Below are positions 13,728 through 29,782 of a stretch of 64,000 bases of DNA, in pieces. The stretch is taken from the NCBI GenBank assembly GCA_021773135.1, contig JAJFKP010000051.1, positions 248,001-312,000 on the forward strand, written 5' to 3'. Numbering within the stretch: the stretch's first letter is position 1; every line of letters starts with the position of its first letter. The notes below the pieces were generated by a model. That model did not search any database. It was not told the origin of the DNA and saw only the letters and a program-made list of their open reading frames with translations. A program made the translations under genes and the position numbers. Source of the DNA: Woeseiaceae bacterium. Lineage in GTDB: Bacteria; Pseudomonadota; Gammaproteobacteria; Steroidobacterales; Woeseiaceae.

Positions 13728-14450
13728 TTAGCGCGGGTTGGAAGCTAACGATGGCGGGTCGCTCATATACAGCACGAGGCTGACCCGACGCTGCAGGGCA
13801 TAGCTGTCGACATTTGTGTCGACGGCCGGGGATTCTCCATGTGCGTCCGTCGTAATCCGGGCCGCCGGAATACCGTTGGCGACCAGCAGGTCCCGCACAT
13901 GCTGCACGCGCCGCAGTGACAATTCCTGGTTGTACGCAGCGTCGCCACATTCATCCGCGTAGCCGTCGAGGCGAATGCGAATGTCTGAATTTGCAGCGAG
14001 ACTCGTGGCGAGCTGGCCCAGCTTGCCGCCAGCCGAATCGGCGAGAACGTCTTCATCGGTCCGAAACAGCAGATCCATCTCGATCCCTGCTGCCAGCAGC
14101 GACAACAATTCCGGCCTGGCCAATTCGCGAATTTCGTTTAATTCGCCATCCATGGAACGGATTTCGCCATTGAGCGACATAACGTTCTTCTCCAGCTGGG
14201 CAACGCGGCTTTGCGAACCTTGTAGCGAGGCTGCGAGCGTTTCCGCCTCCTGGTCACGCCGATAAAGCTCATCGCCAACCGTGCCGCCGATGGCAGCACC
14301 GACAATCGCACCGAATGGTCCGCCCGCAGCGGCACCAATGACAACGCCGAGACCGAGGCCGGCAGCTTCCTCTTTGGACGAGCTATCGGCGAAAGCCGGG
14401 ACTGAAAAACAGCTTGCGAGCAGGCTGAGTAGAATGGTTTTCCTGATCAT
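13728..14450 (-). CDS. OmpA-family protein with glycine zipper and coiled coil
   Basis: 240 residues: signal peptide (1-21), a glycine-zipper segment (GLGVVIGAAAGGPFGAIVGAAIGG) that may insert in a membrane, a coiled-coil stretch (about 65-115) and a C-terminal OmpA/MotB domain. The peptidoglycan-binding residues are kept: YADECGD (Asp) and YNQELSLRR (Arg). The layout resembles OmpA-like proteins of some dedicated envelope systems, but no sortase is present here. It is last in the minus-strand block, 184 bases after the second VWA gene, and is followed by a terminator. It could supply a cell-wall anchor for the ExbB/VWA assembly upstream (inference). Confidence 0.88.
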   Translation of the reverse strand: MIRKTILLSLLASCFSVPAFADSSSKEEAAGLGLGVVIGAAAGGPFGAIVGAAIGGTVGDELYRRDQEAETLAASLQGSQSRVAQLEKNVMSLNGEIRSMDGELNEIRELARPELLSLLAAGIEMDLLFRTDEDVLADSAGGKLGQLATSLAANSDIRIRLDGYADECGDAAYNQELSLRRVQHVRDLLVANGIPAARITTDAHGESPAVDTNVDSYALQRRVSLVLYMSDPPSLASNPR

Positions 14451-14634: not shown

Positions 14635-15624
14635 CTAACGATTCCTTTCTGTTAGCGCGACAAACGTGCCGCCATTGCGCTCGCAAAGCACCCTCATCAA
14701 GCCAGCGAATTTTTGCGAGCTTTGTGGCGGTGTACCGGTGAAGTTATACGGAAAGCCGATCCCGTGAATACGAACCCGGCGATCGCCGTTTTCATCTTCA
14801 ATGTTAATGCTGTCGATCTGTCGCAGGACCGCTTCCATTGAATTGCCCTGGAATTCGTCGCCTAAAACGTAGATGCTTATTTTCTTGTCGGGCGCCCAAA
14901 ACGTTTCTATCGCGTAGGCAATGCCGTCCGACGGATCACTGTCACTAAAGGGCGCCCACTGACGCATTTGTGACCTTATTGCCTGGCGGATTTCCGGTGA
15001 ATCCTTGATCCAGGTCCCACCATATTGCTGAAACATGTAGCGACCATTGTCGTTCATGATCTGCAGGCCTTTGACCTGCGGGTAGACGTTCAGAACCTGC
15101 GCCAGCTTTTCCTCAGCCCACCCCCATTTGGCCTGCATGCTGCCTGACGTATCGATAACGAAAATAACGTACTCGCTGTCGACCGGTATCCCGCCGACCG
15201 CATCGTCGGGTGCCCGCCGAAACGGACGAAGATTCAGCATCTCTTCCGTCAACCGCTGCCGGGCGGCGCGCAGGTCACCTTCGTCGACGTTCAGTGCCGG
15301 ATCATCAGTGTTCAGCAAATTGTACTGTCCCTGAACGGTGTCCAGTTCTTTCTGCAGCGTCGTAAGACGCATCTTGGTTTCGGATGTTTCCAGCTGCACT
15401 ACTCCCAGGGCGCGATTCATTACCGTCGTTTCGCCGCGAATCAGGAACAGCTCTTCCTGAAGTTTCGCGATTAGTTGCGCCAGGTCCTCATTCGTCTTTT
15501 CGAGAATTACGGGTTCGTAAATTTTACTCAGGACAAGCAGCAGCACGATGGCCCCAAAGCCACAACATATGCAGTCCAGAAACGACAGGCTGAATGCTTC
15601 GACATTGCGCTTGCGCCTCGCCAT
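14635..15624 (-). CDS. VWA protein with ExbD/MotB-like membrane anchor (second of pair)
   Basis: 329 residues. A basic N-terminus (MARRKR) precedes one transmembrane helix beginning SFLDCICCGFGA; Asp17 sits at the helix start, where ExbD/TolR/MotB carry their proton-path Asp. A coiled coil follows (about 40-105), then a von Willebrand A domain with the metal site DTSGSMQ near residue 155. The VWA domain would lie in the periplasm. It follows the first VWA gene by one base between stop and start. The last 30 codons hold LCERNGGTFVALTE, usual for a VWA C-terminus. The function is unknown; the genomic partner is the MotA/TolQ/ExbB protein at 18142. Confidence 0.85.
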   Translation of the reverse strand: MARRKRNVEAFSLSFLDCICCGFGAIVLLLVLSKIYEPVILEKTNEDLAQLIAKLQEELFLIRGETTVMNRALGVVQLETSETKMRLTTLQKELDTVQGQYNLLNTDDPALNVDEGDLRAARQRLTEEMLNLRPFRRAPDDAVGGIPVDSEYVIFVIDTSGSMQAKWGWAEEKLAQVLNVYPQVKGLQIMNDNGRYMFQQYGGTWIKDSPEIRQAIRSQMRQWAPFSDSDPSDGIAYAIETFWAPDKKISIYVLGDEFQGNSMEAVLRQIDSINIEDENGDRRVRIHGIGFPYNFTGTPPQSSQKFAGLMRVLCERNGGTFVALTERNR

Positions 15625-15625
15625 G

Positions 15626-16723
15626 CTATGGCCAGTCCTTGCTGATGCTCATGAATGAACCGCCGGTCTGGTATGCCAGCAGCCAATAAGCTATCGATGC
15701 GTAGTAGTCGCCTTCCATCGGGTAGAGCAGGATATTGATGGGCACCCCGGATGGCAGCGTATCAACTGCAGAGTAGTGAAAGCGAAGGCGTTCCGCACCG
15801 GTCACCATACCCCGTTTCGCCTCCGGCGAATCCATCGTCGGCAGTCCGTCGACCAGTAACAGGACGTTGTCCGGCGCGGGATTGAGGTTTGAAATAACCT
15901 CATAGGCGGCATGCATATTCGTCCCTTCTTCCGGAATAGTGCGACGCAGAAGGCGAATAGCCTCGTCCACCTGCTTGCCGTCACCAACATCAAGCCAGAC
16001 ATTCTCACTGCCCTTCAATACGGGTTTCGCCTCGGTATTAAAGGTGTAGATCTGAAACTGACTGTCAGCCGGAAACTGCGCGGACAGCCAGTCAACGCTT
16101 GCAACGGCCTGGCGCCACTTGAGGGAGCGCAGTTTATTGGCATCCGGCAGATTACGCCGGCGGATAATATTGACAATCTTGCGGTCGAGCATGCTCGCCG
16201 AATTGTCGACCAGGACCAGAATACGATCGCCGCCGACTTTTAACCCGGTCAAATACTGCCGATCACCATCACCGACGAACGTACGTACCCGGTTGCCCTC
16301 GCCTTCGCGCTCCTTTTCCATCGCCAGCAGTCGCTTTTTCTCTTCTTCAAGCGACTCAATGTCGGACTGCAGTTTCTCGACCCGCTCGATTTTTGCCAGC
16401 GTAACCGAGTCGTGCTTGACCAACTCTTCCTTGAGCTTCTCAATAAGCGCGATGATCTGGGCAATGCGATCCTCGGCTCGAACCTGCTCATCTTCCAGTC
16501 GGTCCATCGTGTTGCGGGCCAACACGAGATTTTTACGCTGTTCGAGAATTTCAAATTCCAGCTTGACGGTTTCCGCCTGCGCAAGTTCCGGCGGGTTGTC
16601 GGATTCGTGTACAACCTGCGAATTAATAATCATGAAAAACAAAATGACAGCGCCAAAACCGCAGCTCATGCAGTCCAGGAAAGACATGCTGAACACTTCC
16701 ATTTGGCGGCGACGTCTAGCCAT
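15626..16723 (-). CDS. VWA protein with ExbD/MotB-like membrane anchor (first of pair)
   Basis: 365 residues, built like the next gene: MARRRRQ, then a helix beginning SFLDCMSCGFGA with Asp17 in the same position, a long charged coiled coil (about 45-145), then a VWA domain with DNSASM as metal-site motif. Its VWA insert (LRRTIPEEGTNMHAAYEV) differs from its partner, so the pair are paralogues, not copies. The start is ATG 16723, which overlaps the FHA gene; a TTG at 16729 would add two residues. Role unknown; likely an integral partner of the ExbB-like protein. Confidence 0.85.
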   Translation of the reverse strand: MARRRRQMEVFSMSFLDCMSCGFGAVILFFMIINSQVVHESDNPPELAQAETVKLEFEILEQRKNLVLARNTMDRLEDEQVRAEDRIAQIIALIEKLKEELVKHDSVTLAKIERVEKLQSDIESLEEEKKRLLAMEKEREGEGNRVRTFVGDGDRQYLTGLKVGGDRILVLVDNSASMLDRKIVNIIRRRNLPDANKLRSLKWRQAVASVDWLSAQFPADSQFQIYTFNTEAKPVLKGSENVWLDVGDGKQVDEAIRLLRRTIPEEGTNMHAAYEVISNLNPAPDNVLLLVDGLPTMDSPEAKRGMVTGAERLRFHYSAVDTLPSGVPINILLYPMEGDYYASIAYWLLAYQTGGSFMSISKDWP

Positions 16724-18083
16724 TTTCAATATCCGTGGTGATTAGCTGAAACTCAAATCCAGGCGACCCGATGCGGATTGCGTCTCCAACCTGCAACGTG
16801 GAAGAACCATCAACTTTATGACCATTCAGGAACGTGCCGTACCGACTGTGGTCCTCCAGCACGCACTGGCCGTTCTTTCGCAGAAGCGAACAATGCCGCC
16901 TGGATACGCCTGGCATATCGGCCGGCAGCGCCAGGAATCGCTCTCCCGCAATCTCCTGAGACCCGATTATCAGCGGCGAATTCCCTATTTCGTAACCATT
17001 GTGGCCAAACAGGAGATGGGTGGGGAGGCCTTTCTGGACAGCGTCGACGGCATTCCTGTCCAGGGCAACGGCAGCCTGGTCCCAGGGCAGCTGACGCAAC
17101 AGGCTGATGCCCTCTGCCGCAGCGTTATTTCCCCGACAGCGGGCCAGCGCGCCGCGTGCCGTGGCGCCAGGTTCCAGAACGAATACCTCGCCGCCAACAC
17201 GCGCCTCGAGCATATCGACCAGGCCCGGCAAGCGGCCAACCCGATCTGTAACCTGAACCGCGGGCAGATCTTCGGCCCGGAACAAGGCCCGAAGTTTGCT
17301 GGCAATCTGCTGGTAAACCGGCGCCGCTGCGCCGACCAGCGACAGCGACTCGACTTCCGCATGATAGGTAGTGCCCCCCGCGGTAAGCTGCATCGCGACA
17401 CTGTCGGCCTGGCAGGCCTGTTGCAACCATCCGCCCATTTGATCAAGCAGCATCTGCTCCGTTTCCGCCATGTGCAGCGGATCAAAGCGCGATTGCTGCA
17501 CAAAGGATTCGGCAATAGCCTTCAGCCAAATGTCGTACAACGCGTAAACACCTGCCCCATCCAGCGTCTCCTTGCGGTCTATCTGCACCATGCCCGGTTG
17601 TGCGAGCCGGGTCAGTGTCGCCTTGTGCAGGCTGACGTCAACGTGCACCGGCACCGCCCCTTTGTATTCACGGCGCGTAGCCGCGACTGCAGCATCGACG
17701 AGCGCGACTACAGGCAGCTGCAGTTCGTCCGCGATGCCCAGGAACAGGCCCAGATTTTCAGGTGTCATGTATCCGGGAACAGCAACCACGAGCTCAGTTG
17801 GTTTCGCGCTAACGCCAGCCCAGATGTCTTCGAGCTGCTTGCTCGCAAGATCCGCCGCACTCAAATTCGCAAATCGCTGATCGCTGAACGGCGCTGTATC
17901 CAACTCTGACCAAAAGTGGTGTTGGATACGGCGCGGGTCGATACGTGACTGCGAGAATGCACGTGCTCCCGTGGTCAGCTGGTCGCTGCCGAGGTAGGCG
18001 AAACCCGGTTCGCGGTAGACGGTCTGCTCGCCATCCGACAGGGCAATGCCGGCATCGTTGAGATTTATTGCGAAGCGACTCAT
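16716..18083 (-). CDS. Degenerate Hsp70-like domain fused to C-terminal FHA domain
   Basis: 455 residues. Residues 1 to about 340 follow the actin/Hsp70 ATPase order: a phosphate-1-like AINLNDAGIAL, a connect-like VDAAVAATRREY, then VDVSLHKATL in place of the glycine-rich phosphate-2 loop. The usual Asp and Gly-Gly residues of both phosphate loops are lost, so ATP hydrolysis is doubtful. Residues about 365-450 are a complete FHA domain with SRRHCSL and GTFLNG, expected to bind phosphothreonine. There is no signal peptide, so it is cytoplasmic. It lies between the ExbB-like gene and the VWA pair and is the natural reader of the kinase encoded at 21726. Confidence 0.82.
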   Translation of the reverse strand: MSRFAINLNDAGIALSDGEQTVYREPGFAYLGSDQLTTGARAFSQSRIDPRRIQHHFWSELDTAPFSDQRFANLSAADLASKQLEDIWAGVSAKPTELVVAVPGYMTPENLGLFLGIADELQLPVVALVDAAVAATRREYKGAVPVHVDVSLHKATLTRLAQPGMVQIDRKETLDGAGVYALYDIWLKAIAESFVQQSRFDPLHMAETEQMLLDQMGGWLQQACQADSVAMQLTAGGTTYHAEVESLSLVGAAAPVYQQIASKLRALFRAEDLPAVQVTDRVGRLPGLVDMLEARVGGEVFVLEPGATARGALARCRGNNAAAEGISLLRQLPWDQAAVALDRNAVDAVQKGLPTHLLFGHNGYEIGNSPLIIGSQEIAGERFLALPADMPGVSRRHCSLLRKNGQCVLEDHSRYGTFLNGHKVDGSSTLQVGDAIRIGSPGFEFQLITTDIENG

Positions 18084-18141
18084 TCAGATAACCGCGCCTG
18101 TTAACGCCTTGGCCTCGCCTGAATTCCGTTGCACCATCATG

Positions 18142-18945
18142 TCAGTCGCCTTTCATATGCCTGATGAGTTTGTCGTCCAGATAGATCTGGCTGTCGAACA
18201 CAAGGCGTTCCTGCAGCAGTTGCAATTGATACACGAGGAACATCAGGAATATGCTGATTAGCAGGGCAATAAACGTAGAGTTAAACGCGACGCCCAGGCT
18301 TTGCGTGACACCGGCGATATCTCCCTGCACGGCCTTGTCCGCCTGCGCCAGCGCCTCACCAATACCGCGCACCGTGCCTATGAATCCGATGGACGGTATT
18401 GCCCACGATATATATCGAATCATGGATAACTCGGATTCGAGTCGATCAGCCTCAGACTCGAACACGATATTGGTTGTAGTCGAAACGTCCTGAATATTTC
18501 GCGTTGAATTGAACCGTCTTAATGCGTTTTTTAACGCCCGCGGCAAAAGCATACTTTGACGATCCTCGGGCAGTGCTTCTACCTGGCGCGCAAATTCACG
18601 CGTATCTTCCGGCAAAATACGCATGCCCTCCGCAATCGGAACGAGTTCAACGTCAAGCAGATTTCGTTCGCGAATAATTTCACGCGCTTTATAGCCCATG
18701 ATAGCCAGCGCCCAGAACATCAGGATAAAACAAGATTCCTGTTCGAGATCCTTTATCAATACCCAGTTTGAACGATCCCTTACATAGTCCGGATCCGCGG
18801 CTGCCTCAATGGCCTGCTGCTCGAGAATTTCGGTGGCGTTCGGCCTGACGATAGAAACATAAAATGCATGCACGACGATTATCGAAATAATCAATGCAAA
18901 CAGCTGATAAACAAACTCGATCGGGATATTCTTTTTCTTCATCAA
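18142..18945 (-). CDS. MotA/TolQ/ExbB-family proton-channel protein
   Basis: 267 residues with hydrophobic segments at about 11-31, 71-86, 175-193 and 218-240. The C-terminal half has the family signature WAIPSIGFIGTVRGIG and the polar helix FNSTFIALL, matching TolQ/ExbB helices that line the proton path. An N-terminal extension of about 60 residues and a large cytoplasmic loop (about 90-175) precede it. In known systems five such subunits surround two ExbD/TolR/MotB helices and convert proton flow to movement. No ordinary ExbD gene is nearby; the two VWA proteins downstream carry the matching helix. Confidence 0.87.
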   Translation of the reverse strand: MMKKKNIPIEFVYQLFALIISIIVVHAFYVSIVRPNATEILEQQAIEAAADPDYVRDRSNWVLIKDLEQESCFILMFWALAIMGYKAREIIRERNLLDVELVPIAEGMRILPEDTREFARQVEALPEDRQSMLLPRALKNALRRFNSTRNIQDVSTTTNIVFESEADRLESELSMIRYISWAIPSIGFIGTVRGIGEALAQADKAVQGDIAGVTQSLGVAFNSTFIALLISIFLMFLVYQLQLLQERLVFDSQIYLDDKLIRHMKGD

Positions 18946-18991
18946 TTAATTCTCGTAGCGGGCAGTTGCAGAAGACGTCTTCAAGGCGCAG

Positions 18992-19228
18992 TCAGATATT
19001 CGAGGGAAACGGAATCGGCTCGTCAGCCGGAATTTCCTCGGTAGGTACGAAATCGTCGTCATCGTCCTCATAGACCTGTTCATCCAGGTCATCGTCATCG
19101 AGAATTTCGTCGCGCGACTCGTCCTCCGCAGCAGCCGCATCGGCTTCACGCTCGGACTGATCTTCCTGCGACCAGGACGGCTCCATTAAAAAGGCCATTA
19201 AGATGAGGCTTATCAGAAATCTGGACAT
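18992..19228 (-). CDS. Small acidic exported protein, unknown
   Basis: 78 residues from the ATG at 19228 (the frame opens at 19246, but the later start gives a clean signal peptide). Residues 1-20 are a signal peptide ending near PSWSQE. The mature part is almost wholly acidic, with runs such as DDDDL and EDDDDD. No family is recognised. It sits between the PEGA/FGE-like gene and the ExbB-like gene, 46 bases before the latter, on the same strand, which argues that it is a real part of the block. It might bind divalent cations or a basic partner in the periplasm. Confidence 0.6.
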   Translation of the reverse strand: MSRFLISLILMAFLMEPSWSQEDQSEREADAAAAEDESRDEILDDDDLDEQVYEDDDDDFVPTEEIPADEPIPFPSNI

Positions 19229-19302
19229 ATACGTCTCGCTGAACAATCGGGGCGGGCACCGTCATCTGGTTGGACAAGTTTCGTGCCCAAAAATCCGTAT
19301 TT

Positions 19303-21729
19303 TTACTCTACATTTCGCGCCAAACGGAAACCTACGTCGGGCCGACCGCGATTGCCAAAATCACGATAGCCCAGGCGCAACTCCATGATACCGGAGTGCA
19401 TCCAGCTGGAGCCACGAATGACACGATTTGAACCCCTCGGCGGCCCTGCAGGATCCTCTAGCGGCTCGGTCTGCCCCGGTGTCGCGACCGAATAGTAATC
19501 CTGAACCCACTCAGCGACATTGCCGCCGCCATCGTAAATGCCGAGAGCGTTTGCAGCGAAGGTACCCACCGGTGCCGTGGACGCGTAGCCGTCATCCCAC
19601 CCGGGCAGAATCGATGGCACCAGTCCGTTTGCGGATCTGCCGGCGTAATTGCCGCTGTCCCGTCGGGGCGGCATGCGGTTGCCCCAGGGAAACGTCGATG
19701 CTTTGGGTCGTGCCTGGTAGCGGATAGCCCATTCCCATTCAGCCTCGGTGGGCAGGCGATAGCCGTTAGGCGTCGGAGAAATCGGTTGCCAACGCTCGAA
19801 TATTTTCTCGTAAGCCGGATTCAGTCCTTCCTGGGTACTAAGCCAGTTGCAGTACTCGACGGCATCCTCCCAGCTTAGGTTTGCGACAGGATTCATATCC
19901 CCTGCCAATGCGACATGGAGTTCGCCACCGGAATCATGACCGGACCGGAATCGTCGAAACTCCCGATTGGTCACTTCTTTGGTGCCGATATAGTAAGGCT
20001 TCGTCAAAACAACCGGCACCAATACCTCATTCGCGCGCCTGCCCTGTTCGCGCCGCGAAGTTCCCATCACGAATTCACCAGGTTCAATTCGCCGGAGATC
20101 CTGTCCCTGCGCTGACTTGATGGAATTCGCGGTGCTGCGCGCGAGCATTTCGGCATCCGACAACAGCCGGACCTGAATGGTTTGTGGATATCCGGGTCGC
20201 GGAGTGACGCTGCGCGCAAAGGTCGCATACCCGTCCTTTTTCACTTCCAGCTGGTGTGGCGCCGAAGACAGATTAAGCGTTACCGTGCCGCTGCCGCGTG
20301 CCTGACCATCAATAAATACGGTGGCGTCGACGGGCAGCACGGCGACCGTAACCTCGCCCACTCGCGCCGTCATATCGACGTTTATTTCTTCGGCAGCTGC
20401 CGCCTCCAGGCGCACTCGGCGCGACGCGGTGCCATAGCCCGCTTTTGACAGGCCTATTTCGTAATTAATGTCCGGCGACAGCGCGATCGTGACAGGCGAC
20501 TGGCCACGATAGCGGCCGTTGACCGACACATTCGCACCACGCGGTATGGAGGTAACCCGCAGCTGCGCGTTAGCCGGCTCCAGCTCTACGGTGGGCAACA
20601 CCTGCGCAATGTTTGCGATCGCCTCCACGCTGCCGTCCCAGGCCTTGAAGCCATCCTTGATCAGGCTCAACGAATGCGACCCTTCCATCAATTCAAGCTG
20701 CATTGGCGTCTCACCGATCTGTGTCTCCCCCTGGTAAACAGCCGCACCGGAAGGACTCGAACTCACCTCCACCTCAGCCCATAGCGGCACGAGCTGCACC
20801 TCCAGCCGCTGTCTTATTCCAAGGCCTGGCACAACCAATCGTTGCGTAAAGGGCAAATAACGGTCTGCGGATACCGTGACAGTGTGCGTTCCGGGCTCCA
20901 GCTCAAGGGGTCCGAGTGGCGCCGGTCCTACACGTGTGTCATCGACGGTTATCAATGCGTCCACGGCAGGATGTGTGGCTACCGTCAGTTCGCCGGGCAA
21001 CTTGCGCATTTCGATCACGATAGTACGGCTGGGTTCTTCGCCAACCCTGAAACTCTGCGCGACGTCAAAATAACCCTGCTTGGACACCTTGACCGTGTAG
21101 TCTCCTTCGCGCATAAGAATTCGCTCGCCGACGGGCAGCTTGAACCACCCGCCTTCAACTGAAATCTCATCCAGCCCGGCCGGCTGCACGTCGAACTGAA
21201 TCGATTTCGAACTGAACAGCAACCACGAGACGGCCACCAGCAGCGCAATCACGCCGCCAACCACAGACTGCCAGCGGATTCCCGTCGACGCAGTCTCCAC
21301 CGGCACCTTTTCGGTAGCGCGGCGAAACGCTGTCGCTACGATCGTCTCTTCCGCTACTGCGACTGATGAATCCGCCAGCTCGGGCGGCTTCGTCACATAT
21401 ACGCTGCCCTCGAGGTGAACACCAAGCAGCATCGCCCCATCAAGCTCATCGATCTTAACTGTTGATCCAAAGAACTCGAGTTCATCACCGCTCTTGAGTT
21501 TGCGGGACGTCTGCAGCGGCTCACCATTGATCTTTAACGCGTCCGTCGCCACGGCCGGCTGTACAAAAGGTTCGCCGTCGAGTTCGTCAAGCAGTGCGAC
21601 GGCGCTTCTGCCCGGGCCTGGCAGGCGAATGTCGCAATCAATTCCGGTACCAATGCGCAGCGGCAGTTGACTCACTGCAAGGCGACGCTCACCCTCATTG
21701 TCGCGAATGATGACGGCGTTGAAATTCAA
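19303..21729 (-). CDS. FHA-like / transmembrane / PEGA repeats / inactive FGE-like protein
   Basis: 808 residues. Residues 1-95 look like a degenerate FHA fold (LRIGTGIDCDI, then INGEPL and SGDELEFFG) lacking the phospho-binding SxxH. A transmembrane helix spans 155-173. The periplasmic part has about five PEGA-type beta repeats (for example SSPSGAAVYQGETQIGETP, IPRGANVSVNGRYRG), then an FGE/SUMF1 domain from about 545 (PGEFVMGTSRRE, TKEVTNREF, RLPTEAEWEWA, GNVAEWVQD, GFRLAR). The C-terminal region lacks the two catalytic cysteines of true formylglycine-generating enzymes, so a binding rather than enzymatic role is likely. It overlaps the kinase gene by 4 bases. Confidence 0.85.
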   Translation of the reverse strand: MNFNAVIIRDNEGERRLAVSQLPLRIGTGIDCDIRLPGPGRSAVALLDELDGEPFVQPAVATDALKINGEPLQTSRKLKSGDELEFFGSTVKIDELDGAMLLGVHLEGSVYVTKPPELADSSVAVAEETIVATAFRRATEKVPVETASTGIRWQSVVGGVIALLVAVSWLLFSSKSIQFDVQPAGLDEISVEGGWFKLPVGERILMREGDYTVKVSKQGYFDVAQSFRVGEEPSRTIVIEMRKLPGELTVATHPAVDALITVDDTRVGPAPLGPLELEPGTHTVTVSADRYLPFTQRLVVPGLGIRQRLEVQLVPLWAEVEVSSSPSGAAVYQGETQIGETPMQLELMEGSHSLSLIKDGFKAWDGSVEAIANIAQVLPTVELEPANAQLRVTSIPRGANVSVNGRYRGQSPVTIALSPDINYEIGLSKAGYGTASRRVRLEAAAAEEINVDMTARVGEVTVAVLPVDATVFIDGQARGSGTVTLNLSSAPHQLEVKKDGYATFARSVTPRPGYPQTIQVRLLSDAEMLARSTANSIKSAQGQDLRRIEPGEFVMGTSRREQGRRANEVLVPVVLTKPYYIGTKEVTNREFRRFRSGHDSGGELHVALAGDMNPVANLSWEDAVEYCNWLSTQEGLNPAYEKIFERWQPISPTPNGYRLPTEAEWEWAIRYQARPKASTFPWGNRMPPRRDSGNYAGRSANGLVPSILPGWDDGYASTAPVGTFAANALGIYDGGGNVAEWVQDYYSVATPGQTEPLEDPAGPPRGSNRVIRGSSWMHSGIMELRLGYRDFGNRGRPDVGFRLARNVE

Positions 21730-24140
21730 ATGGACTCCTCGCAGAGTATGACAATCGGTTGCATTTCGACCTCTGGCGCCACTCTAAATTCAATTCGGAC
21801 ATCACGATAGCCAGCCCGGTTTCCTACCGCAACGTAGACGCCTGGTCTCAGACTCAGGTCCTGCCGTGCAAAAGTGCCCAGTTTACCGACCTTGAAAATC
21901 GCGACATTTGTCTGCTCATCTGATATCAGGGTCACCGGCACCGGGGTTGCCGCACGTTTGAGCAAACGAGACAGCTCGTTTTTCTGATCTTCCAAACGCG
22001 GTCCAACCGGCTGTAATCGAGTGACTTCAAGCAACAAGTTGGTCGCGTTTTGCATCGTGACCTGATCACTGAGTACATCGGGTTCGGCGATCAACGCCGC
22101 GAGCCGTGCGTGCAACGCCGCTCTCGAACGTGCCTCAAACAGACCGGCCTGCGCAAACTGTAAATCGGGATCAATTTCCAGAATATCTTCGTAAACGACC
22201 ACTGAGGCTTCCCACTGTTCTGCAGCATCCAGTTCGCTTGCTTTTTGCTCCAGGCGTCGAATATTGGCCAGGCGAACTTCCTGATCAAGCTGCAGCAGCC
22301 CGTCAACAGGCTGGCGCGACCCAGGGTCAAGCGCCTTGGCCGCATTGAATGCAGCGCGCGCAGTATCAAAATCGGCTGCGAATAACGCATCAAACCCCTC
22401 TGTCATGCGTTGCTCGAAAGAATATTGCTTGATTGCGGCGCGTACGCGTTCGAGCCCCGCTGCTGCGGGCTCCCACAGTGGATCCAGCTCCAGCACTTTT
22501 TCAAAAGCCAGTTTCGCAGCTGCGAATTCGAGGTTTTCTTCAAATTGACCGCCCTGGCTCATGAGAGTGAGGACGGCCTGCAGGTTTTTTGCGCGAGCAA
22601 GTCCGGCTTCTGCCTCCCTGTCACCAGGCGTAATCGAGGTGGCAAGATCGAACAACCTTATTGCTTCCGATACGTCGCTCGCGTCGAAGGCTCTGCGAGC
22701 GGCGGCCAGGGTTTCTTCGAACACGCTATCAATACGCTCGAAGAACGGCTCAAGTCGTCTGCTCGCTTGCACATATTTCTCCCCGGCAAGGCGATAGTTT
22801 CGATCTACATAAGCCTGGTCACCTTCAGCATAGACATCCAGTGCATCAAGATATTCTTGTCCGCCCCAGCGATCTATGGCCCGAAATCGCAGTCGCTCTA
22901 GCTGTGAGAGCAAATCACCCAGCGCGCGGTCTGTTGCTGCTTTTATTTGCGTAACCGACGTTGCTCCGCTGCTTTCCAGGTTCTCGCTAAAAGTAGTATC
23001 CGCACCGGCTTCAGCACCAGCGGGACGGGGCGCTGTTGTAGCCGGCGACGAATTTTCTGTGGTGGCTGGACCTGCTTCTTCAGCAGCACCTGGCACAACG
23101 GTTGTTTCAATTGCGCCTGGCGGATCGGCAATGCCAGGACGCTCTGAATCGAATAGATTGGGCAAAACAAAAATAACGATCAGGAACAGCAGTGCGGCAA
23201 CGGCGAGGCCACCGTAAAGAACGGTCGGCGAGATTCCTCCAGATGACTCTGCACTCTGGATTGACTCCGGCGCGGTGACTGCGGCGCCATGCCGACGAGG
23301 TTTTGCCTCAACAGGCTCAACGGACTCATCAATGCCACCTGCACCGGAGACGAACCGCGCCGGCGCAGGACCTGGCGCGATTCCCGCTGCCGCAAGTCTT
23401 GCAGCGACTGTCTCGGCGTCCGGACGATCGTCGGCGTCGATCGCAAGCATCTCGCGCAACAGTTCACGAATGGTCGAGGGCATGGGCTCGCCGTTGGTGA
23501 GGGATGCGGCGACATCACCGTCAACCGGCGGCATACCTGTCAACAACTCATGGATCAAAACACCAAGCGAAAATATATCGTCGGCTGCAGCGGCCGTAGC
23601 GCCCGCTTGCTGCTGCGGACTGCTCGCAACTTCAGACCCGCCGCCCGTCACGGGAACAGCATCATGACCATCGCCCGAGACGCCGAAATCGATGAGGTAA
23701 GGCAGACCATGACTGTCCAGCAGTACGTTGCTGGCTTTTACGTCCCTGTGCACCACGCCTTTGCCATGTGCATAACGCAGCGCATCCGAGATCAGCGCTA
23801 CAGGGCGCAGCGATTCGAACGGATCTATCCCTGCTAACGCCCCGATATCCGTCGCTCCAACGAATTGGAGCCCATAAAACGGGCCATCCGCATCGTCGTG
23901 ATATTCGAAAAGGCGAACGATGTTGGCATGCATCAGTCGGCTGCCGATGCGCCACTCCCGATTAAACAACTGCCGCTGCCGAGGATCGGCAGCAAACTTA
24001 TCCTTAAGGATTTTCAGTGCGATGCGGGTATCCAACCGGTCATCGCGCGCCAGCCAGACTTCACCAGAGCCGCCCGCCCCAAGCCTGCGGATCAGCGTAT
24101 ATCGATTCGCCAGGCACGTACCTTCATTGAGGTTCCGCAT
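21726..24140 (-). CDS. Transmembrane Ser/Thr protein kinase with repeat C-terminus
   Basis: 804 residues. The kinase domain (about 14-270) has the glycine loop GAGGSGEV, Lys43, HRDVKASN (Asp133) and DFG (151-153), so it should be catalytic. The usual APE motif is replaced by SPQQ at 174-177. A Pro/Ala-rich linker, one transmembrane helix near 305-328 and a periplasmic helical region of TPR-like repeats follow (for example AFEKVLELDPLWEPA, AFNAAKALDPGSRQP). A PEGA-like end (RPGVYVAVGNRAGYRDV) closes the chain. It is the probable input kinase of the block; the FHA protein at 16716 is a plausible target reader. Confidence 0.88.
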   Translation of the reverse strand: MRNLNEGTCLANRYTLIRRLGAGGSGEVWLARDDRLDTRIALKILKDKFAADPRQRQLFNREWRIGSRLMHANIVRLFEYHDDADGPFYGLQFVGATDIGALAGIDPFESLRPVALISDALRYAHGKGVVHRDVKASNVLLDSHGLPYLIDFGVSGDGHDAVPVTGGGSEVASSPQQQAGATAAAADDIFSLGVLIHELLTGMPPVDGDVAASLTNGEPMPSTIRELLREMLAIDADDRPDAETVAARLAAAGIAPGPAPARFVSGAGGIDESVEPVEAKPRRHGAAVTAPESIQSAESSGGISPTVLYGGLAVAALLFLIVIFVLPNLFDSERPGIADPPGAIETTVVPGAAEEAGPATTENSSPATTAPRPAGAEAGADTTFSENLESSGATSVTQIKAATDRALGDLLSQLERLRFRAIDRWGGQEYLDALDVYAEGDQAYVDRNYRLAGEKYVQASRRLEPFFERIDSVFEETLAAARRAFDASDVSEAIRLFDLATSITPGDREAEAGLARAKNLQAVLTLMSQGGQFEENLEFAAAKLAFEKVLELDPLWEPAAAGLERVRAAIKQYSFEQRMTEGFDALFAADFDTARAAFNAAKALDPGSRQPVDGLLQLDQEVRLANIRRLEQKASELDAAEQWEASVVVYEDILEIDPDLQFAQAGLFEARSRAALHARLAALIAEPDVLSDQVTMQNATNLLLEVTRLQPVGPRLEDQKNELSRLLKRAATPVPVTLISDEQTNVAIFKVGKLGTFARQDLSLRPGVYVAVGNRAGYRDVRIEFRVAPEVEMQPIVILCEESI

Positions 24141-24157
24141 AGAGTCCCGAGCCGAAT

Positions 24158-25399
24158 TTATCCAGTCGGTTGGGGTTGCTGTTGCGCCCTGGACGGATCG
24201 CTAACCTGGATGACTTCGGTGAAACCTGTCTCAGTTTCATAGATATCGCGCAGCAGCTTGCGCCAGCTCTCATATTGCGCTTCGGCAGTTCCAGTGAGTC
24301 GCATTGTTTCTCCCTGGACCTGGACCACCATCGGTGCCGCTTCCGCAACGAAGGATTCCGACAGCTCCTTGATCTCTTCCCGATGCACGTTGGCCGAACG
24401 GTATTGACCAAACGCGTTGATGATAGAGTTCCAGCCTTTGTTGATAGCGACATTCTGCGCAATCCGCTCGGCGGAATAATAGTCACCACTGGTGTTGATG
24501 GAGGCGGAACCGACCACGACTGCCGCGCCCAACAATGCACGGCGCATTGCCGCCGCGCGCGATTGTCGGTAGGCAACTGACTGTTCCCGCGTCCGTTTCC
24601 GCCAGCCCTCATAAGGCAACGCAATGCCATAATAGAAGTTCGCGTAATGTTCGTTGAGTGTGTCAACGACCAGACGATCTCGCTCGCGAATCTGTCGCAG
24701 TCGATCGACCATCGGATCGTTTGCCGCAGGCAGGCGTTGCACAGTGATCATGCCATCTTCGTCGGCAGCCAGATGGTCACCGTAGGCATTCGGCGCCATA
24801 TCGGCGAAAAACTTAAGCTCCGACACCTCGCGAATGCGCGAAATGTCTTTGGGATCCAGCGTCAATACATAAGCATGCAGATCATTGGCGAAGTCGTTAA
24901 AAATTTTCTGGTAGGGATCCTGGGTCCGATCGCGGTATTCAGCGTAGGACGATATACCGGTTTGCATCGTGTAGGACTCTTCAAACCAGAATCGACCGGT
25001 CGCATCCTGCGCCTGCAACTCCACGGTGATGAACTCACCGTCCGACTGTTCAATCAGGCCGCTTACCAATACGTCCGTCGAAACATCCGCCGACGGAATG
25101 ACCCTCACGGCGCCCCAAAACCCGGTGCCCTGCAAAGTGGTTTTAATGTGATAAGGGAGGTAACGCGCTTCCGCCATGCGGACTTCTGGATATATGCGGG
25201 TTTTTTCTACGTCGTTTTCTTCAGGAACGCCGGCATCAAAATTGAGAATCCCTACATCGAGCAAAAGACTCTCCGAAACCTGCAGGGAGGCCACTTCAAG
25301 CGGCGACGTTTCGGCATGAATAATCTCTGAAACCGTACAGCCGGCGAGCAGGTACGCACCAAGGACAAAAGTCAGGAGTAACCGCAATTTGTGTCTCAT
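24158..25399 (-). CDS. Lipoprotein, unknown, kinase-block member
   Basis: 413 residues. The lipobox is LLAGC with the lipidated Cys at 21; the next residue is Thr, so outer-membrane sorting is likely. The mature protein is soluble, with a beta-rich first half (DVLVSGLIEQSDGEFITVELQAQDATGRFW) and a helical second half rich in Arg and Glu. No named domain is recognised. A weakly hydrophobic stretch (ALLGAAVVVGSASINTS) lies near residue 290. It ends 18 bases before the kinase start and follows the Gly/Ser lipoprotein gene, so it is probably in the same transcript. Confidence 0.75.
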   Translation of the reverse strand: MRHKLRLLLTFVLGAYLLAGCTVSEIIHAETSPLEVASLQVSESLLLDVGILNFDAGVPEENDVEKTRIYPEVRMAEARYLPYHIKTTLQGTGFWGAVRVIPSADVSTDVLVSGLIEQSDGEFITVELQAQDATGRFWFEESYTMQTGISSYAEYRDRTQDPYQKIFNDFANDLHAYVLTLDPKDISRIREVSELKFFADMAPNAYGDHLAADEDGMITVQRLPAANDPMVDRLRQIRERDRLVVDTLNEHYANFYYGIALPYEGWRKRTREQSVAYRQSRAAAMRRALLGAAVVVGSASINTSGDYYSAERIAQNVAINKGWNSIINAFGQYRSANVHREEIKELSESFVAEAAPMVVQVQGETMRLTGTAEAQYESWRKLLRDIYETETGFTEVIQVSDPSRAQQQPQPTG

Positions 25400-25430
25400 A
25401 TTGTCTTCTTAAATCCGTTCGGTCTATGGC

Positions 25431-26513
25431 CTAATTAAGATCGTTATAGGAGCGATATTCTTCCCAAAGTCGTTCACGTAATTCCGGATCGGACTCCGCC
25501 AGCGCAGCTTCCCGAAGCTGCTTGGCAACAATGTCCTCGCTGACCAGGTCAGGGATATCTGCGGGTGTACGGGCCTGAATTTCTTCCTCACTGAGACCGC
25601 CAATAGAGGCTTCACGCTCTGTCGGCGGCATCGCTACGGTGCCGGCCGCGCCGGCTCCGCCGCCGCTACCACCACCACTGCCACCGCCGCCCTGCGAACC
25701 CAATCCAACCCGGCCTGTCCCGGCACCGCCGCCCGAGCCGCCGAAGCCTTCGGTATTTCTGCCCACTGTTGATATTTCGCGCTGCTCCTCGCCCAGGACT
25801 TCGTCGAATCCACCAACAGACTCATCCAGGGTCTTCTCGAGCCTGGCTTTGCGATCAGCATCACTTTCACCCGGTATCTGGCCAACGCTGCCCTCGCAGT
25901 TGTCGTCGGGACCGCCCCATCCTCCGGTACCGCCGGTTGCATTAGGATCACAGTCAGTATTTGACCCCGCGCCACCCGTGCCTGCGATGCCACCGGCACC
26001 GCCTGCGCCGGGTACGGGTCCACTCACACCCCGAATCTGGCCTGCACCACCACCTGCCCCGCCGCCGCCAGCTCCGCCGCCTGATGCGCCGCCTGACGAA
26101 CCGCCCTGCATACCACCATCCGAGGCGCCGCCTGACGAACCACCGGACGAGCCGCCTGACGAGCCACCCGACATGCCGCCGGAGGAACCGCCGCCCGACG
26201 AGCCACCTGAAGAACCGCCCGACATTCCGCCAGAGGATCCACCCGAAGAGCCCCCTGATGAACCGCCCGACATGCCGCCGGAGGAACCCCCTGAGGAGCC
26301 GCCCGAAGAACTGCCCGAGGAGCCGCCCGAGGAACCGCCTGAAGAACCACCGCCGGGAATGCTGACACCACCGCCGCCACTGGATCCACCGGACATGCCG
26401 CCGCTGGGAGAATAGCTAACAGCACATCCTCCCAGGATCAGCGCCATAGCCGCAGATAGAACGGCAACGCGAATGTTGGGGGTGATAACTTGTGTCCGGC
26501 TGCTCAGGTTCAT
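25431..26513 (-). CDS. Gly/Ser-repeat lipoprotein, first gene of the block
   Basis: 360 residues. A lipoprotein signal ends in LGGC (Cys30). Residues 38-158 are almost only Gly and Ser in short units (GGSSGG, GGMSGG), a long flexible, unfolded arm; a second glycine-rich stretch lies at 255-290. The C-terminal 70 residues are acidic and predicted helical (SEEEIQARTPADIPD, DPELRERLWEEY). There are two cysteines in the middle (188 and 206). A linker spanning the periplasm from a lipid anchor to a helical docking piece is one reading. Its start at 26513 faces a 470-base gap that should hold the block's promoter. Confidence 0.78.
   Translation of the reverse strand: MNLSSRTQVITPNIRVAVLSAAMALILGGCAVSYSPSGGMSGGSSGGGGVSIPGGGSSGGSSGGSSGSSSGGSSGGSSGGMSGGSSGGSSGGSSGGMSGGSSGGSSGGGSSGGMSGGSSGGSSGGSSGGASDGGMQGGSSGGASGGGAGGGGAGGGAGQIRGVSGPVPGAGGAGGIAGTGGAGSNTDCDPNATGGTGGWGGPDDNCEGSVGQIPGESDADRKARLEKTLDESVGGFDEVLGEEQREISTVGRNTEGFGGSGGGAGTGRVGLGSQGGGGSGGGSGGGAGAAGTVAMPPTEREASIGGLSEEEIQARTPADIPDLVSEDIVAKQLREAALAESDPELRERLWEEYRSYNDLN
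26040..26402 (-). repeat. Tandem GGSSGG-coding repeat
   Basis: About 360 bases made of short imperfect units, read on the + strand as gaaccgcctgacgag-like strings, encoding residues 38-158 of the Gly/Ser lipoprotein. The units vary at third positions, so this is a protein-level repeat kept under selection rather than a fresh DNA duplication. Slippage could change the length between strains. Confidence 0.8.
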
Positions 26514-26983: not shown

Positions 26984-27499
26984 TTACTGCGCCTGCGCAC
27001 GATCCCGACTTCTGTGCCCGCGGCCGCGGTCACCGGGTCCCATTGCTGCCAGTTGCTGCTGCTGCTCTGGCGTCAGAATGGCGTGTATTTCAGCCCTGAT
27101 CCGGCCACGCAGTTCTACCGATGACGATTCAAGCGCACCTTTTGCAGCGGCAAGATTCTGCAGCTGCGCACCGTAGTCCGGATCGTTCACATCCAGATCG
27201 CGCATCGCTTTACGGTTTTCGCGGTTACTTTCCCGCAGCAATTCCATCTCCGGTCTTGCGCTTTCGACAATGTTGGTCATTTGCTCGACCTGCGTATCAT
27301 CCAGGTCCAGTCTGCGCGCCATACCGCGAACCATTCGCTGCGCGTCATTCGACCGATGCTCGCCATGTTTCTGCCGAGTCTGGTTGTGCCGCTCGCCTCG
27401 ATCTATTTCGTTTGTATCGGCTTCCTGCGAAATTGCCGAACCACCGACAACCAGCAGAGCGATGCTTGCGATCATTACGGACAGATTTTTCTTGCTCAT
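26984..27499 (-). CDS. Spy/CpxP-family periplasmic protein
   Basis: 171 residues from the ATG at 27499; the longer frame lacks a signal at its front. Signal peptide about 1-24 (ending ISQEA). The mature part is helical, highly charged, with a C-terminal LTPEQQQQL motif, the LTxxQ hallmark of CpxP/Spy. In enterobacteria CpxP binds misfolded proteins and restrains the sensor CpxA. Here the gene is divergent from cpxR-cpxA-like genes across 205 bases, exactly the enterobacterial arrangement, which supports a CpxP role. The C-terminus ends in a basic RGRGHRSRDR tail. Confidence 0.82.
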   Translation of the reverse strand: MSKKNLSVMIASIALLVVGGSAISQEADTNEIDRGERHNQTRQKHGEHRSNDAQRMVRGMARRLDLDDTQVEQMTNIVESARPEMELLRESNRENRKAMRDLDVNDPDYGAQLQNLAAAKGALESSSVELRGRIRAEIHAILTPEQQQQLAAMGPGDRGRGHRSRDRAQAQ

Positions 27500-27704
27500 G
27501 ATTAATACCTCGTTAAAGTTCAAAATGTCCCCTCTCTGGCCGCTTGTGCGGCTGCTTTCGATACAGCCTATCCGCGCGGAAGTTGGCAAACGTCAATCTA
27601 CGCGCAGATTCTGCCAAGAATTGTCAAGGACGGACGACCGATCATTGCGCTGCCCGGTCCGTTGGCGGACGATGCCAGTCAACGTTCACAAAACAACCGC
27701 TGAC

Positions 27705-28406
27705 ATGATCGATGCAAACAAAACCTCCTCTGTCCTGCTGATCGACGACGATCGGGAACTGGGCAAGATGCTTGGCGATTTCCTTTCAGGAGACCGGCTC
27801 GACGTTACGACCCGGCACACCGGTGAGAGCGGACTGGAAGAATTCGCCAGGCAGAAGTTCGACCTCCTGATACTGGACATCATGATGCCAGGCATGAGCG
27901 GGCTTGATGTCCTGAAAAAAGTGCGGCAGACCAGCCCCATACCGGTCATCATGCTGACAGCGCGGGGCGACGACATTGATCGCATCATTGGCCTCGAATT
28001 TGGTGCGGATGACTACCTGCCCAAGCCCTTCAATCCACGTGAATTGCTGGCACGGATAAAAGCGATACTGCGCCGGTCCGGCCCACAGGAAAAAGCCACG
28101 CGCCGACTGACTCTCGGCGATATTACGCTGGACGCGCGCACCCACCAGGCGTCCGTGAGCGGCACCAAGTTGGAACTCACTGGCACGGAGTACGAGATCC
28201 TGAGGTGTCTTCTCGAGACTCCGGGCGAGGTCGTCAGTAAGGAGCAACTCAGCGAACGCGCGCTCGGTCGAAGGCTAATGCCCTATGACCGCAGTGTCGA
28301 CACGCACATCAGCAATTTGCGCGGCAAGCTCGAACGGGCAGGCAACAGGAATGAAACCATTCAGAACCAGCGTGGTGTCGGGTACCTGCTGATTCCGGGG
28401 TCTTAG
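27705..28406 (+). CDS. cpxR: CpxR-like OmpR-family response regulator
   Basis: 233 residues. The receiver domain has the acidic pocket LLIDDD, the phospho-acceptor Asp58 (LLILDIMMPGM) and the PKPF lysine; the winged-helix DNA-binding domain ends GVGYLL. The sequence follows enterobacterial CpxR closely in LTARG, FGADDYLPKPFNPREL, ELTGTEYEIL and LMPYDRSVDTHISNLR. The frame is open far upstream, but the ATG at 27705 gives the family's N-terminus. It is followed by the sensor kinase 11 bases later. Likely targets are envelope-stress genes, including the divergent CpxP-like gene; I saw no clear GTAAA-N5-GTAAA box. Confidence 0.85.
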   Translation: MIDANKTSSVLLIDDDRELGKMLGDFLSGDRLDVTTRHTGESGLEEFARQKFDLLILDIMMPGMSGLDVLKKVRQTSPIPVIMLTARGDDIDRIIGLEFGADDYLPKPFNPRELLARIKAILRRSGPQEKATRRLTLGDITLDARTHQASVSGTKLELTGTEYEILRCLLETPGEVVSKEQLSERALGRRLMPYDRSVDTHISNLRGKLERAGNRNETIQNQRGVGYLLIPGS

Positions 28407-28417
28407 GCCAACCGTTC

Positions 28418-29782
28418 ATGCATAGTCTCTTCCTGCGCTTCTTTCTTTCTTTCTGGCTGATCATCGGCATCATCATCGGGGCCGCAGCCACCGGCGGATT
28501 CTGGTATGCCGAGAAGGTGCAGGATGCCATTGAACATTTTGAGCTCGACGGCCGGTTGCTGGCCGCCAGTTCGGCACTGGAGTCCGGTGGCAGAGCCGGA
28601 TTGACCAACTGGCTGCGCGACTTTCCTCAGACTCGCGGCATTACGCTGTATGTAGTCGACGATCAGGACGAAGACATTCTTGATCGACCATTGTCGAAAC
28701 GCATCGCCGGCACGGTGCGGCGGCATCGAGAATTCCAACGCACTCGCCCGCCCGGTCGGGATGATCCACGTAACCTGAGGCGCTCGCGCCATCTGCCCCA
28801 GCTGGTTGGCGCGAATGGAGATACATTCACATTCTTTGTATCGACGTCAAGGATCCGGGACGCGATCTGGGGCGCTACCGACGTGAGGCTGTTGCTGCTT
28901 ATCTTTGCACTGCTGGTCAGCGGCGCGGTTTCATATGCGCTTGCCAGCGCGATATCGCGTCCGGTGAGAAAACTGCGCAGTGCAACAGTTACCCTTGCTG
29001 ACGGAGATCTCGATGTTCGCGTCGCAAATTTAATTGGCAATCGGCGTGATGAGCTGGGCATGCTCGGACGTGATTTTGACACGATGGCCACCAATCTGCA
29101 GCGTGCAGCTCAGCAGCAAACGGAACTGTCGCGCAACATTTCACACGAACTTCGCTCTCCACTGGCACGCATGCGAGTCGCCGTAGAATTGGCCCGGGAA
29201 AAGGCTGGTGATTTGTCGGAATTTGCGCGACTCGATGACGACGCTGAAAGACTGGACGACCTGATCGGGCAAATCTTGAGTTATACGAAGCTGGACGCGC
29301 TGCCCAACAAACGCAATGAGAATATAGATATTGCAGAGGTTGTTGCCGAAGTCGCGGAGAACGTCAATTTCGAATGCAAATCCGACTCTGCACGTGGCGT
29401 CAGTGTGGAAACCAGCGTGCCGTCTGCAATCAATATCCCAGGACATTACGACGTGCTGGTCAGCGCCGTGGAAAACATTGTGCGCAATGCCGTAAGACAC
29501 AGCGCGCCTGGCAGACCGGTCACGATCGGCGTCGACACCGGTACGCAGGAGGTCCGCATAGAAATTTGCGACACGGGCCCTGGCGTTCAGGCTGAGGAAA
29601 TTCCGCGCCTGTTTGAACCGTTCTTTCGTACACGAGCATCCGCCGAAGCTGACGGCAACGGGGGCACCGGGTTGGGATTGGCGATCGCTCGCCGCGCGGT
29701 TGAACTGCACAACGGAGAAATTACTGCCAGGAATAGAGACGAAGGGGGACTATGTGTCGAGATAACGCTGCCGCGGAATTAG
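28418..29782 (+). CDS. cpxA: CpxA-like sensor histidine kinase
   Basis: 454 residues: transmembrane helix at about 7-30, a periplasmic sensor of roughly 125 residues, a second helix near 158-178, HAMP linker, dimerisation/phospho-acceptor helix ISHELRSPLARM (His about 243), then ATPase motifs ENIVRNAVRHS (N box), DTGPGV (G1) and GGTGLGLAI (G2). All catalytic motifs are intact. It is co-oriented with cpxR 11 bases upstream. The last 4 bases overlap the stop of the convergent PP2C gene. The periplasmic domain is Arg-rich and not obviously similar to enterobacterial CpxA, so the input signal may differ. Confidence 0.86.
   Translation: MHSLFLRFFLSFWLIIGIIIGAAATGGFWYAEKVQDAIEHFELDGRLLAASSALESGGRAGLTNWLRDFPQTRGITLYVVDDQDEDILDRPLSKRIAGTVRRHREFQRTRPPGRDDPRNLRRSRHLPQLVGANGDTFTFFVSTSRIRDAIWGATDVRLLLLIFALLVSGAVSYALASAISRPVRKLRSATVTLADGDLDVRVANLIGNRRDELGMLGRDFDTMATNLQRAAQQQTELSRNISHELRSPLARMRVAVELAREKAGDLSEFARLDDDAERLDDLIGQILSYTKLDALPNKRNENIDIAEVVAEVAENVNFECKSDSARGVSVETSVPSAINIPGHYDVLVSAVENIVRNAVRHSAPGRPVTIGVDTGTQEVRIEICDTGPGVQAEEIPRLFEPFFRTRASAEADGNGGTGLGLAIARRAVELHNGEITARNRDEGGLCVEITLPRN

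Follow-up and report, generated by a model that had tools for sequence, protein, structure and literature searches.

On balance, a block of nine genes in a Woeseiaceae bacterium probably encodes a proton-driven motor that spans the cell envelope, belongs to the 5:2 class of MotAB, ExbBD, and TolQR, has a pair of VWA proteins as its axle and outer membrane lipoproteins as its load, and in this lineage carries a phosphorylation switch. The block lies at positions 14635 to 26513 of the window, i.e., the whole stretch of 64,000 nucleotides that we analyzed (GenBank assembly GCA_021773135.1, contig JAJFKP010000051.1, positions 248,001 to 312,000), and all coordinates given here are window positions. 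The reading draws on a conserved gene set, on invariant residues in the putative ring and axle proteins, on the model folds of an Hsp70-like protein and of a lipoprotein domain, and on the joint loss of kinase, FHA domain, and a candidate threonine site among relatives. The original prediction had announced eight consecutive minus-strand genes; all are where it placed them and on that strand, but the genes that it listed number nine.

Gaps between neighboring block genes range from -14 to +58 bp, an operon-like spacing. Beginning at the upstream end, all nine on the minus strand, the genes encode lipo1 (25431 to 26513), a lipoprotein (LGGC) rich in Gly and Ser whose last ~35 to 50 residues are conserved; lipo2 (24158 to 25399), a lipoprotein (LAGC) and predicted outer membrane partner; a Ser/Thr kinase (21726 to 24140) with a membrane helix at residues 307 to 325 and a TPR-like periplasmic part; an FHA-like/PEGA/FGE protein (19303 to 21729), the predicted phospho-acceptor and periplasmic arm; a small acidic exported protein (18992 to 19246); an ExbB/TolQ-like protein, the predicted ring subunit (18142 to 18945); a degenerate Hsp70-like protein with a C-terminal FHA domain, the predicted cytoplasmic phospho-reader (16716 to 18083); and VWA_B (15626 to 16729) and VWA_A (14635 to 15624), the predicted first and second axle subunits. 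Pfam cutoffs were exceeded by Pkinase (3.5e-28), PEGA (2.5e-47, four stretches), FGE-sulfatase (5.5e-41), MotA_ExbB (1e-14), and the FHA domain of the Hsp70-like protein (1.8e-12). An FHA-like/PEGA/pseudo-FGE protein had been proposed; its PEGA and FGE parts pass the cutoffs, but the FHA match at its N terminus has an E value of only 0.14, and this domain is therefore FHA-like at best. Sulfatase-activating enzymes of the FGE type have a catalytic Cys pair in their C-terminal core, and, judged by eye, no conserved Cys is present in the C-terminal part of the FGE-protein alignment.

The block is a conserved unit that occurs in bacteria of marine and soil origin. Our main set consisted of the best 80 of at least 544 VWA_B relatives in named genomes, and gene presence was counted only where the contig extends far enough. 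On this basis, VWA_A was present in 73/73 loci, the FGE/PEGA protein in 54/54, the kinase protein in 48/48, the ExbB-like protein in 65/66, lipo2 in 43/44, and the Hsp-FHA protein in 65/70, i.e., the six core partners were found at 93 to 100% of the loci where they would be visible. Gene order on one strand was kept in 44 of the 45 loci showing all seven main genes, more than expected by chance; in the exception, L097, the block is split into two divergent halves. Block synteny was also evident in further locus sets beyond the 80. The ExbB-like gene follows VWA_A instead in some relatives (L199 and L202), and the VWA pair at L133, a Kiritimatiellae locus, has no ExbB-like gene beside it.

By record taxa, the 80 loci come from Gammaproteobacteria, Acidobacteriota, Desulfobacterales and other Deltaproteobacteria, Myxococcales, and one Kiritimatiellae metagenome-assembled genome (MAG), and the best named VWA_B relatives are Woeseiaceae or Woeseia MAGs with 86 to 91% identity (those at 88% and 91% being partial). 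VWA_B was matched in ~82 of 90 genomes of the window's own family (counted by eye), in 54/60 relatives, in 215/296 genomes of the order, in 31/369 genomes of the class, and in 3/198 genomes of a phylum sample around L101, counting L101's own genome. The ExbB-like profile matched the identical 31 class genomes, and in 29 of them the two genes lie within 3 kb on one contig. The remaining two genomes have the genes on different contigs, the ExbB-like gene being near a contig end in G368 and well inside its contig in G270. Lipo2 was detected in 27/369 class genomes, 26 of which are common to VWA_B and the ExbB-like protein. Matches also occur in draft genomes assembled at just 1.1 to 1.8 Mb, suggesting that the system is no luxury. 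A second, diverged VWA_B copy (36 to 37% identity) occurs in L039 (G056:C9) and at G043:C132, and both genomes also hold a standard copy; L039 has neither a kinase domain nor an Hsp-FHA gene. L128 carries the system and clusters with L139 from an uncultured Gammaproteobacteria MAG; its own MAG record bears the title “Klebsiella pneumoniae,” which is probably wrong.

The part of the prediction that concerns a motor driven by the proton motive force, with VWA proteins as ExbB partners, is well supported by sequence. The ExbB-like protein scores 54.8 bits against PF01618 (cutoff, 22.9) and has just two clear hydrophobic stretches in a simple scan, at residues 15 to 33 and 226 to 244. In a 109-residue alignment of its profile to TolQ (E = 0.016), the threonines of the TolQ GTV and ALIAT stretches fall on T191 and T224. 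On the final tree of 112 loci, T191 was kept in 112/112 and T224 in 111/111 (one gap), and P184 is invariant. Each VWA N terminus has four or five basic residues and then a single hydrophobic stretch with an Asp near its start (Asp17 in VWA_A, SFLDCICCGFGA; Asp19 in VWA_B, SFLDCMSCGFGA), an arrangement by which the VWA part should be periplasmic. In VWA_A, the helix is followed by a predicted stalk and the VWA domain, with the C-terminal part predicted to be periplasmic, and VWA_B has the same layout. The membrane Asp was present in 79/79 readable VWA_B and 78/78 VWA_A proteins of the 80 loci (one VWA_B being truncated where its contig ends) and in 112/112 of each on the final tree. The VWA_2 matches (5e-5 and 0.0044) are below the Pfam cutoff, but both proteins have the DxSxS motif of the metal ion-dependent adhesion site (MIDAS; DTSGS in VWA_A and DNSAS in VWA_B). 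This motif is invariant in 20-row alignments, and its first Asp was kept in 112/112 VWA_A and 110/111 VWA_B proteins, plus one gap, on the final tree.

Of the nine PF01618 genes in the window's own genome, eight have a PF02472 or MotB_plug gene within ~1 kb; the exception is the ExbB-like gene of the block. Helix profile comparisons were suggestive only for VWA_B against ExbD, with the Asp on the Asp (P = 5.5e-4), and unrelated helix controls started from 0.024. Elsewhere in the genome, at G000:C47:223717-225143, an ExbB gene is accompanied by two ExbD-like genes, one of which has Asn for the membrane Asp.

The phosphorylation part of the prediction can be followed through three proteins. In the window, the kinase has K43, D133, N138, and D151, the FHA domain of the Hsp70-like protein has S394, H397, and N420, and the FGE/PEGA protein has T113 (TKPP; codon at 21391 to 21393, minus strand), a candidate phosphosite in the cytoplasmic linker that follows the FHA-like domain and precedes a membrane helix starting at approximately residue 155. 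We read kinase state from the alignment columns of the four kinase residues and FHA state from those of S394, H397, and N/D420, and we scored the site as T-x-[PA]-P in the linker (the looser regex of one earlier count also took T-x-S-P). Many relatives have a “kinase” gene without a kinase domain that keeps the membrane and TPR-like part. Microbulbifer (L134 and L135) is one relative in which the kinase domain is absent. On the final tree, all 68 kinase-intact loci had an intact FHA and 67 had the site. Among the 44 loci with the kinase domain absent or without a catalytic residue, the FHA was intact in 8 and degenerate in 23, and 13 had no Hsp-FHA gene; the strict regex found the site in 5 of the 43 that could be scored. 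The motor residues did not change with kinase state, so the joint loss is not general decay. “Phosphorylation-controlled” therefore fits the window but not the whole family, because the kinase is absent or broken in 44/112 loci while the motor genes stay. Moreover, the retention of motor residues by relatives without the kinase, site, and reader suggests that the motor works without this trio.

The same association was seen in each locus set. In the first set (62 loci with an Hsp gene, including the same-genome pairs L022/L090, L025/L093, and L030/L131), an intact kinase was accompanied by an intact FHA in 45/45 loci and by the site in 43/43 distinct loci; without an intact kinase, the FHA was intact in 5/17, and the Hsp-FHA gene was missing from another 5 loci. 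In the class sample, 15 loci had no kinase domain, and at none of them did an Hsp-FHA gene in the usual position carry an intact FHA. A prespecified test used 40 loci, from which three incomplete ones (L212, L246, and L250) and three repeats (L233, L234, and L245, of L114, L112, and L109) were removed. Of the 34 new loci, 25 were kinase intact, with the FHA in 25/25 and the site in 24/25; the nine without an intact kinase had the site in 0/9, the FHA in 3/9, and no Hsp gene in 5/9. L251, the one kinase-intact locus without the site, does have TVPP in the linker of its kinase, but we discounted this as a rescue given that T-x-P/A-P occurs in 16/55 kinase linkers. In a threonine scan of six proteins, no Thr but T113, inside its variable linker, dropped markedly alongside kinase loss (1.00 to 0.25). 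Two periplasmic positions of the FGE protein dropped mildly (0.91 to 0.63 and 0.84 to 0.66), and no marked drop was found in the ExbB-like, VWA_A, VWA_B, kinase, or Hsp proteins. L248 and L249 have no kinase domain but an intact FHA, with ELPP or DLPP in place of T-x-P-P (by eye).

Kinase state changes ~14 times on the 112-locus tree, and we compared independent pairs over random pairings. Kinase and site gave 12 pairs, 9.5 changing the same way and 0.0 the opposite way (median P = 0.0039); kinase and FHA gave 13 pairs, 7.7 the same way and 0.0 opposite (P = 0.0078); and site and FHA gave 10 pairs, 7.4 the same way (P = 0.016). With the strict regex, kinase and site gave 9.4 pairs the same way and 0.1 opposite (P = 0.0039), and with Hsp-bearing loci only, kinase and FHA gave 12 pairs, 6.5 the same way (P = 0.031). 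Some rows were scored by hand. The main pair test set L127 aside and, by eye, took the site as absent from L134 and L203 despite their regex matches, and the strict-regex repeat scored all three as present. L034 (masked bases) was set aside for site scoring, and L097, whose FGE N terminus reads out of frame, was scored without the site. L208 was scored without an Hsp-FHA gene; a separate FHA protein upstream of its lipo1 matched weakly (25 bits), with the FHA residues present. The first smaller tree left out L022, L025, and L030, and later trees left out L039 (very long branch). The class sample contributed 15 of its 20 pieces: L194, L051, L209, and L210 were too short, and L211, from the same genome as L203, carries nothing but the ExbB gene. 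On the tree, L240 cannot be told apart from L241.

The folds of the accessory proteins add to this picture. The AlphaFold2 model of the Hsp70-like protein (predicted local distance difference test [pLDDT] score, 90.5) has Ssz1 as its best PDB match (Foldseek E = 2.9e-17) and DnaK next, which, together with the FHA match, confirms the proposed Hsp70-like/FHA fusion; the Hsp70 nucleotide-binding fold was missed by Pfam. The Gly-rich phosphate loops of the Hsp70 ATPase are not conserved in the alignment when inspected by eye, and the protein is therefore probably no active chaperone. The lipo2 model (pLDDT, 82.7 overall) consists of a domain at residues 30 to 187, aligning with FlgT, PelC, CsgG, TolB domain 1, and PqiC at Z scores of ~8 to 11, followed by long helices. 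Foldseek alone gave a best E value of 0.002, to TolB, and the lipo2 profile against PDB sequences gave one match (E = 0.08), which is not useful. A second lipo2-like gene lies in the window's own genome (G000:C51:150355-151059), and another (G242:C1:1845932-1847098) lies in G242, the class genome with lipo2 alone and no VWA_B or ExbB-like match. The acidic protein has a C-terminal motif, F-[IV]-P-[ST]-x-x-[IV]...[FY]-P-x-[DN]-I, found in 12/21 sequences (the window plus 20 loci) and in 30/80 loci; such a C terminus, ending in FPx[DN]I, resembles a tail for docking or sorting.

In the mechanism that we propose, five ExbB-like subunits would form the ring, and one VWA_A and one VWA_B would form a two-helix axle. 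Asp17 and Asp19 would face the ring threonines T191 and T224, and proton flow through ring and axle would drive turning or pulling. The VWA stalks and heads would reach into the periplasm and push or pull an outer membrane complex of lipo2, through its TolB domain 1/FlgT-like domain, and lipo1. The membrane kinase would sense a signal via its TPR-like part and phosphorylate the FGE/PEGA protein at T113, in its juxtamembrane linker; the degenerate Hsp70-like protein would dock on phospho-T113 through its FHA domain, so that the motor is engaged or released. The most specific form of this model, a rotary motor with a heterodimeric VWA axle, a TolB/FlgT-like lipo2 load, and a phosphorylation clutch leading from the kinase via phospho-T113 in the FGE/PEGA arm to a pseudo-Hsp70 FHA docked at the ring, is one that we hold tentatively and somewhat short of even belief. 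Comparable reserve applies to the idea that the clutch is a module; among independent pairs, the site follows the kinase in ~9 to 10 out of 12 and the FHA does so in ~8 out of 13, none goes the opposite way, and motor residues are kept.

Several observations weigh against the proposed motor and its switch. The loci were picked by likeness to the window, and the majority are draft MAGs. Helix likeness is weak (P = 0.022 for VWA_A versus ExbD, 0.011 for VWA_A versus MotB, and 0.058 for VWA_B versus MotB, with controls from 0.024), and the ExbB-like profile matches no PDB chain at an E value of 0.01. The 34 new loci alone amount to three independent pairs and reach no significance, and smaller trees gave median P values of 0.031 or 0.0625 and of 0.0625 or 0.125. 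T-x-P/A-P is not rare in such linkers, as its frequency in kinase linkers shows, and only 8 of the 30 kinase-less proteins of the threonine scan have any residue aligned at T113. Finally, 8 of the 44 loci whose kinase is not intact still have the FHA, an observation that also favors a motor without the switch, in which the kinase has other targets and the joint loss reflects clades simplifying their cytoplasmic side. The Hsp gene is wholly missing in three kinase-less tree groups and in L039, and many kinase-less FGE proteins have lost the entire FHA-like N terminus rather than the Thr alone, both of which fit such simplification. Against it, L108 has lost the FHA-like domain but keeps TTPP and the kinase, and linker prolines are retained by L118 and L193, with Val or Leu for Thr, and by L248 and L249, with Glu or Asp (by eye). 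No locus on the tree combines an intact kinase with a broken FHA (68/68), and the marked drop at T113 is unmatched in the six-protein scan, the two periplasmic FGE positions being mild. We regard a switchless motor as rather unlikely, while giving it serious weight.

Other explanations change the motor itself or its purpose. One is a machine dedicated to exporting or assembling a surface product and resembling the type IX secretion system (T9SS), curli, or Pel machinery, in which lipo2 would be the outer membrane part and either the acidic protein or lipo1 the cargo. The lipo2 domain is as close to PelC and CsgG as to TolB domain 1 and FlgT, the FGE fold also occurs in GldK/PorK, and the exported acidic protein has its conserved C-terminal motif. 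However, the GldK match (TIGR03525, 98.1 bits) is far under the cutoff of 350, family-library scans of the nine block proteins matched no secretin, barrel, or transport ATPase family, and the motif-bearing acidic protein was recognized in 30/80 loci only, so that we find an export role unlikely. We give still less credence to VWA proteins sitting at the edge of the motor like TolA or TonB, as proposed for the first vWA family in PMC12204202, with an ordinary ExbD encoded elsewhere as the axle. The genome does contain six PF02472 genes, but all six adjoin an ExbB gene of their own, the VWA helices have the invariant Asp, and the SHLS motif of the published edge family was not seen in alignments of the VWA N termini. 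An antiphage defense system related to Zorya is very improbable: the ExbB-like protein has a weak ZorA match (E = 0.002) and defense-type kinase models match the kinase, but among the nine block proteins scanned, only weak ZorA and ZorB matches appeared and none to ZorC, ZorD, or ZorE, and presence in most genomes of the family speaks for a housekeeping role.

The VWA-axle motor core itself has an earlier published prediction. PMC12204202 (2025) describes an AlphaFold 3-predicted “second family” of vWA proteins (TPH-vWA) in which a TolQ-like ring is combined with a heterologous pair of vWA proteins whose helix bears an Asp, without tolR or exbD. Compared by described features, our block shares the heterologous vWA pair, the Asp-bearing helix, the tolQ-like neighbor, the lack of tolR/exbD, and the conserved Thr ring; therefore, the core is not new. 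In the main text of that paper, “kinase” is absent and “FHA” occurs only as FhaC, and the lipoproteins, FGE/PEGA, Hsp70-FHA, and acidic proteins, and the phosphorylation switch are not part of its account of the vWA motor. Literature searches did not find the full nine-gene set as one machine, the lipo2 fold, the pseudo-Hsp70 reader, or the coevolving T-x-P/A-P switch, and the accessible portions of PMC12505986 and PMC9389320 show no such system. The original view that no published system has this exact set thus stands for the whole but not for the core. Relative to the MotAB, ExbBD, and TolQR motors, the block has the same MotA_ExbB domain, channel threonines, and Asp in the partner helix, but its partner is a VWA pair instead of ExbD or an OmpA-type MotB. 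T9SS GldKLMN (GldLM in PMC9389320) likewise pairs a 5:2 motor with an FGE-fold partner, although the GldK match here is, as noted, far below its cutoff.

The closest parallel for the switch is found in the type VI secretion system (T6SS), in which, according to PMC3953482, PpkA phosphorylates TssL at Thr14 and Fha binds phospho-Thr14, activating secretion. Both arrangements have a membrane kinase, a phosphothreonine (predicted here) in the cytoplasmic part of an inner membrane component, and an FHA reader. By this analogy, the kinase-site-reader trio most likely controls the motor as PpkA-TssL-Fha does the T6SS. Unlike the T6SS, the block has no match to T6SS core families among its nine proteins in family-library scans, and its reader is fused to an Hsp70-like domain. 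The Arn proteins of archaeal motility control include FHA and vWA proteins. Like the block, ArnA/ArnB/ArnC (PMC12852372) form a control unit that brings a kinase together with FHA and vWA proteins, but they are archaeal regulators without motor subunit fusion.

A widespread further 5:2 member with a VWA-pair axle would demonstrate that the axle is an interchangeable part. Motors of the 5:2 class power nutrient uptake, outer membrane upkeep, motility, secretion, and phage defense. With a named candidate site, T113, a kinase, and a reader, and with natural relatives that lack all three, the family offers a ready comparison for on/off control of such a motor.

Several neighboring genes deserve mention. 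As predicted, an OmpA-like gene, with a Gly-zipper, lies just beyond the block (13728 to 14450, minus strand, 184 bp away); it is a neighbor mainly in Woeseiaceae and is not family-wide. Its assignment as the sortase-associated OmpA protein PdsO was rejected (TIGR03789, 127.1 bits; cutoff, 152.2). A PP2C phosphatase and a second Ser/Thr kinase with zinc ribbons (29779 to 31886, minus strand) are also found beside the block in several, but not all, relatives and are candidate opposing enzymes. The gene that directly follows VWA_A in L139 (L139:12085-12768) is lipoprotein-like. ORFs related to it occur in 18 loci outside the Woeseiaceae, in 17 of which they lie downstream of the block, and the family has no significant Pfam match. 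Another recurrent neighbor family was discarded because its members looked like antisense shadows. Upstream of the block, at 26984 to 29782, an LTXXQ-family protein, which we take to be of the CpxP/Spy type, and a divergent pair of OmpR-type regulator and histidine kinase form a Cpx-like envelope stress arrangement, and a regulator and histidine kinase adjoin the block in L021 as well.

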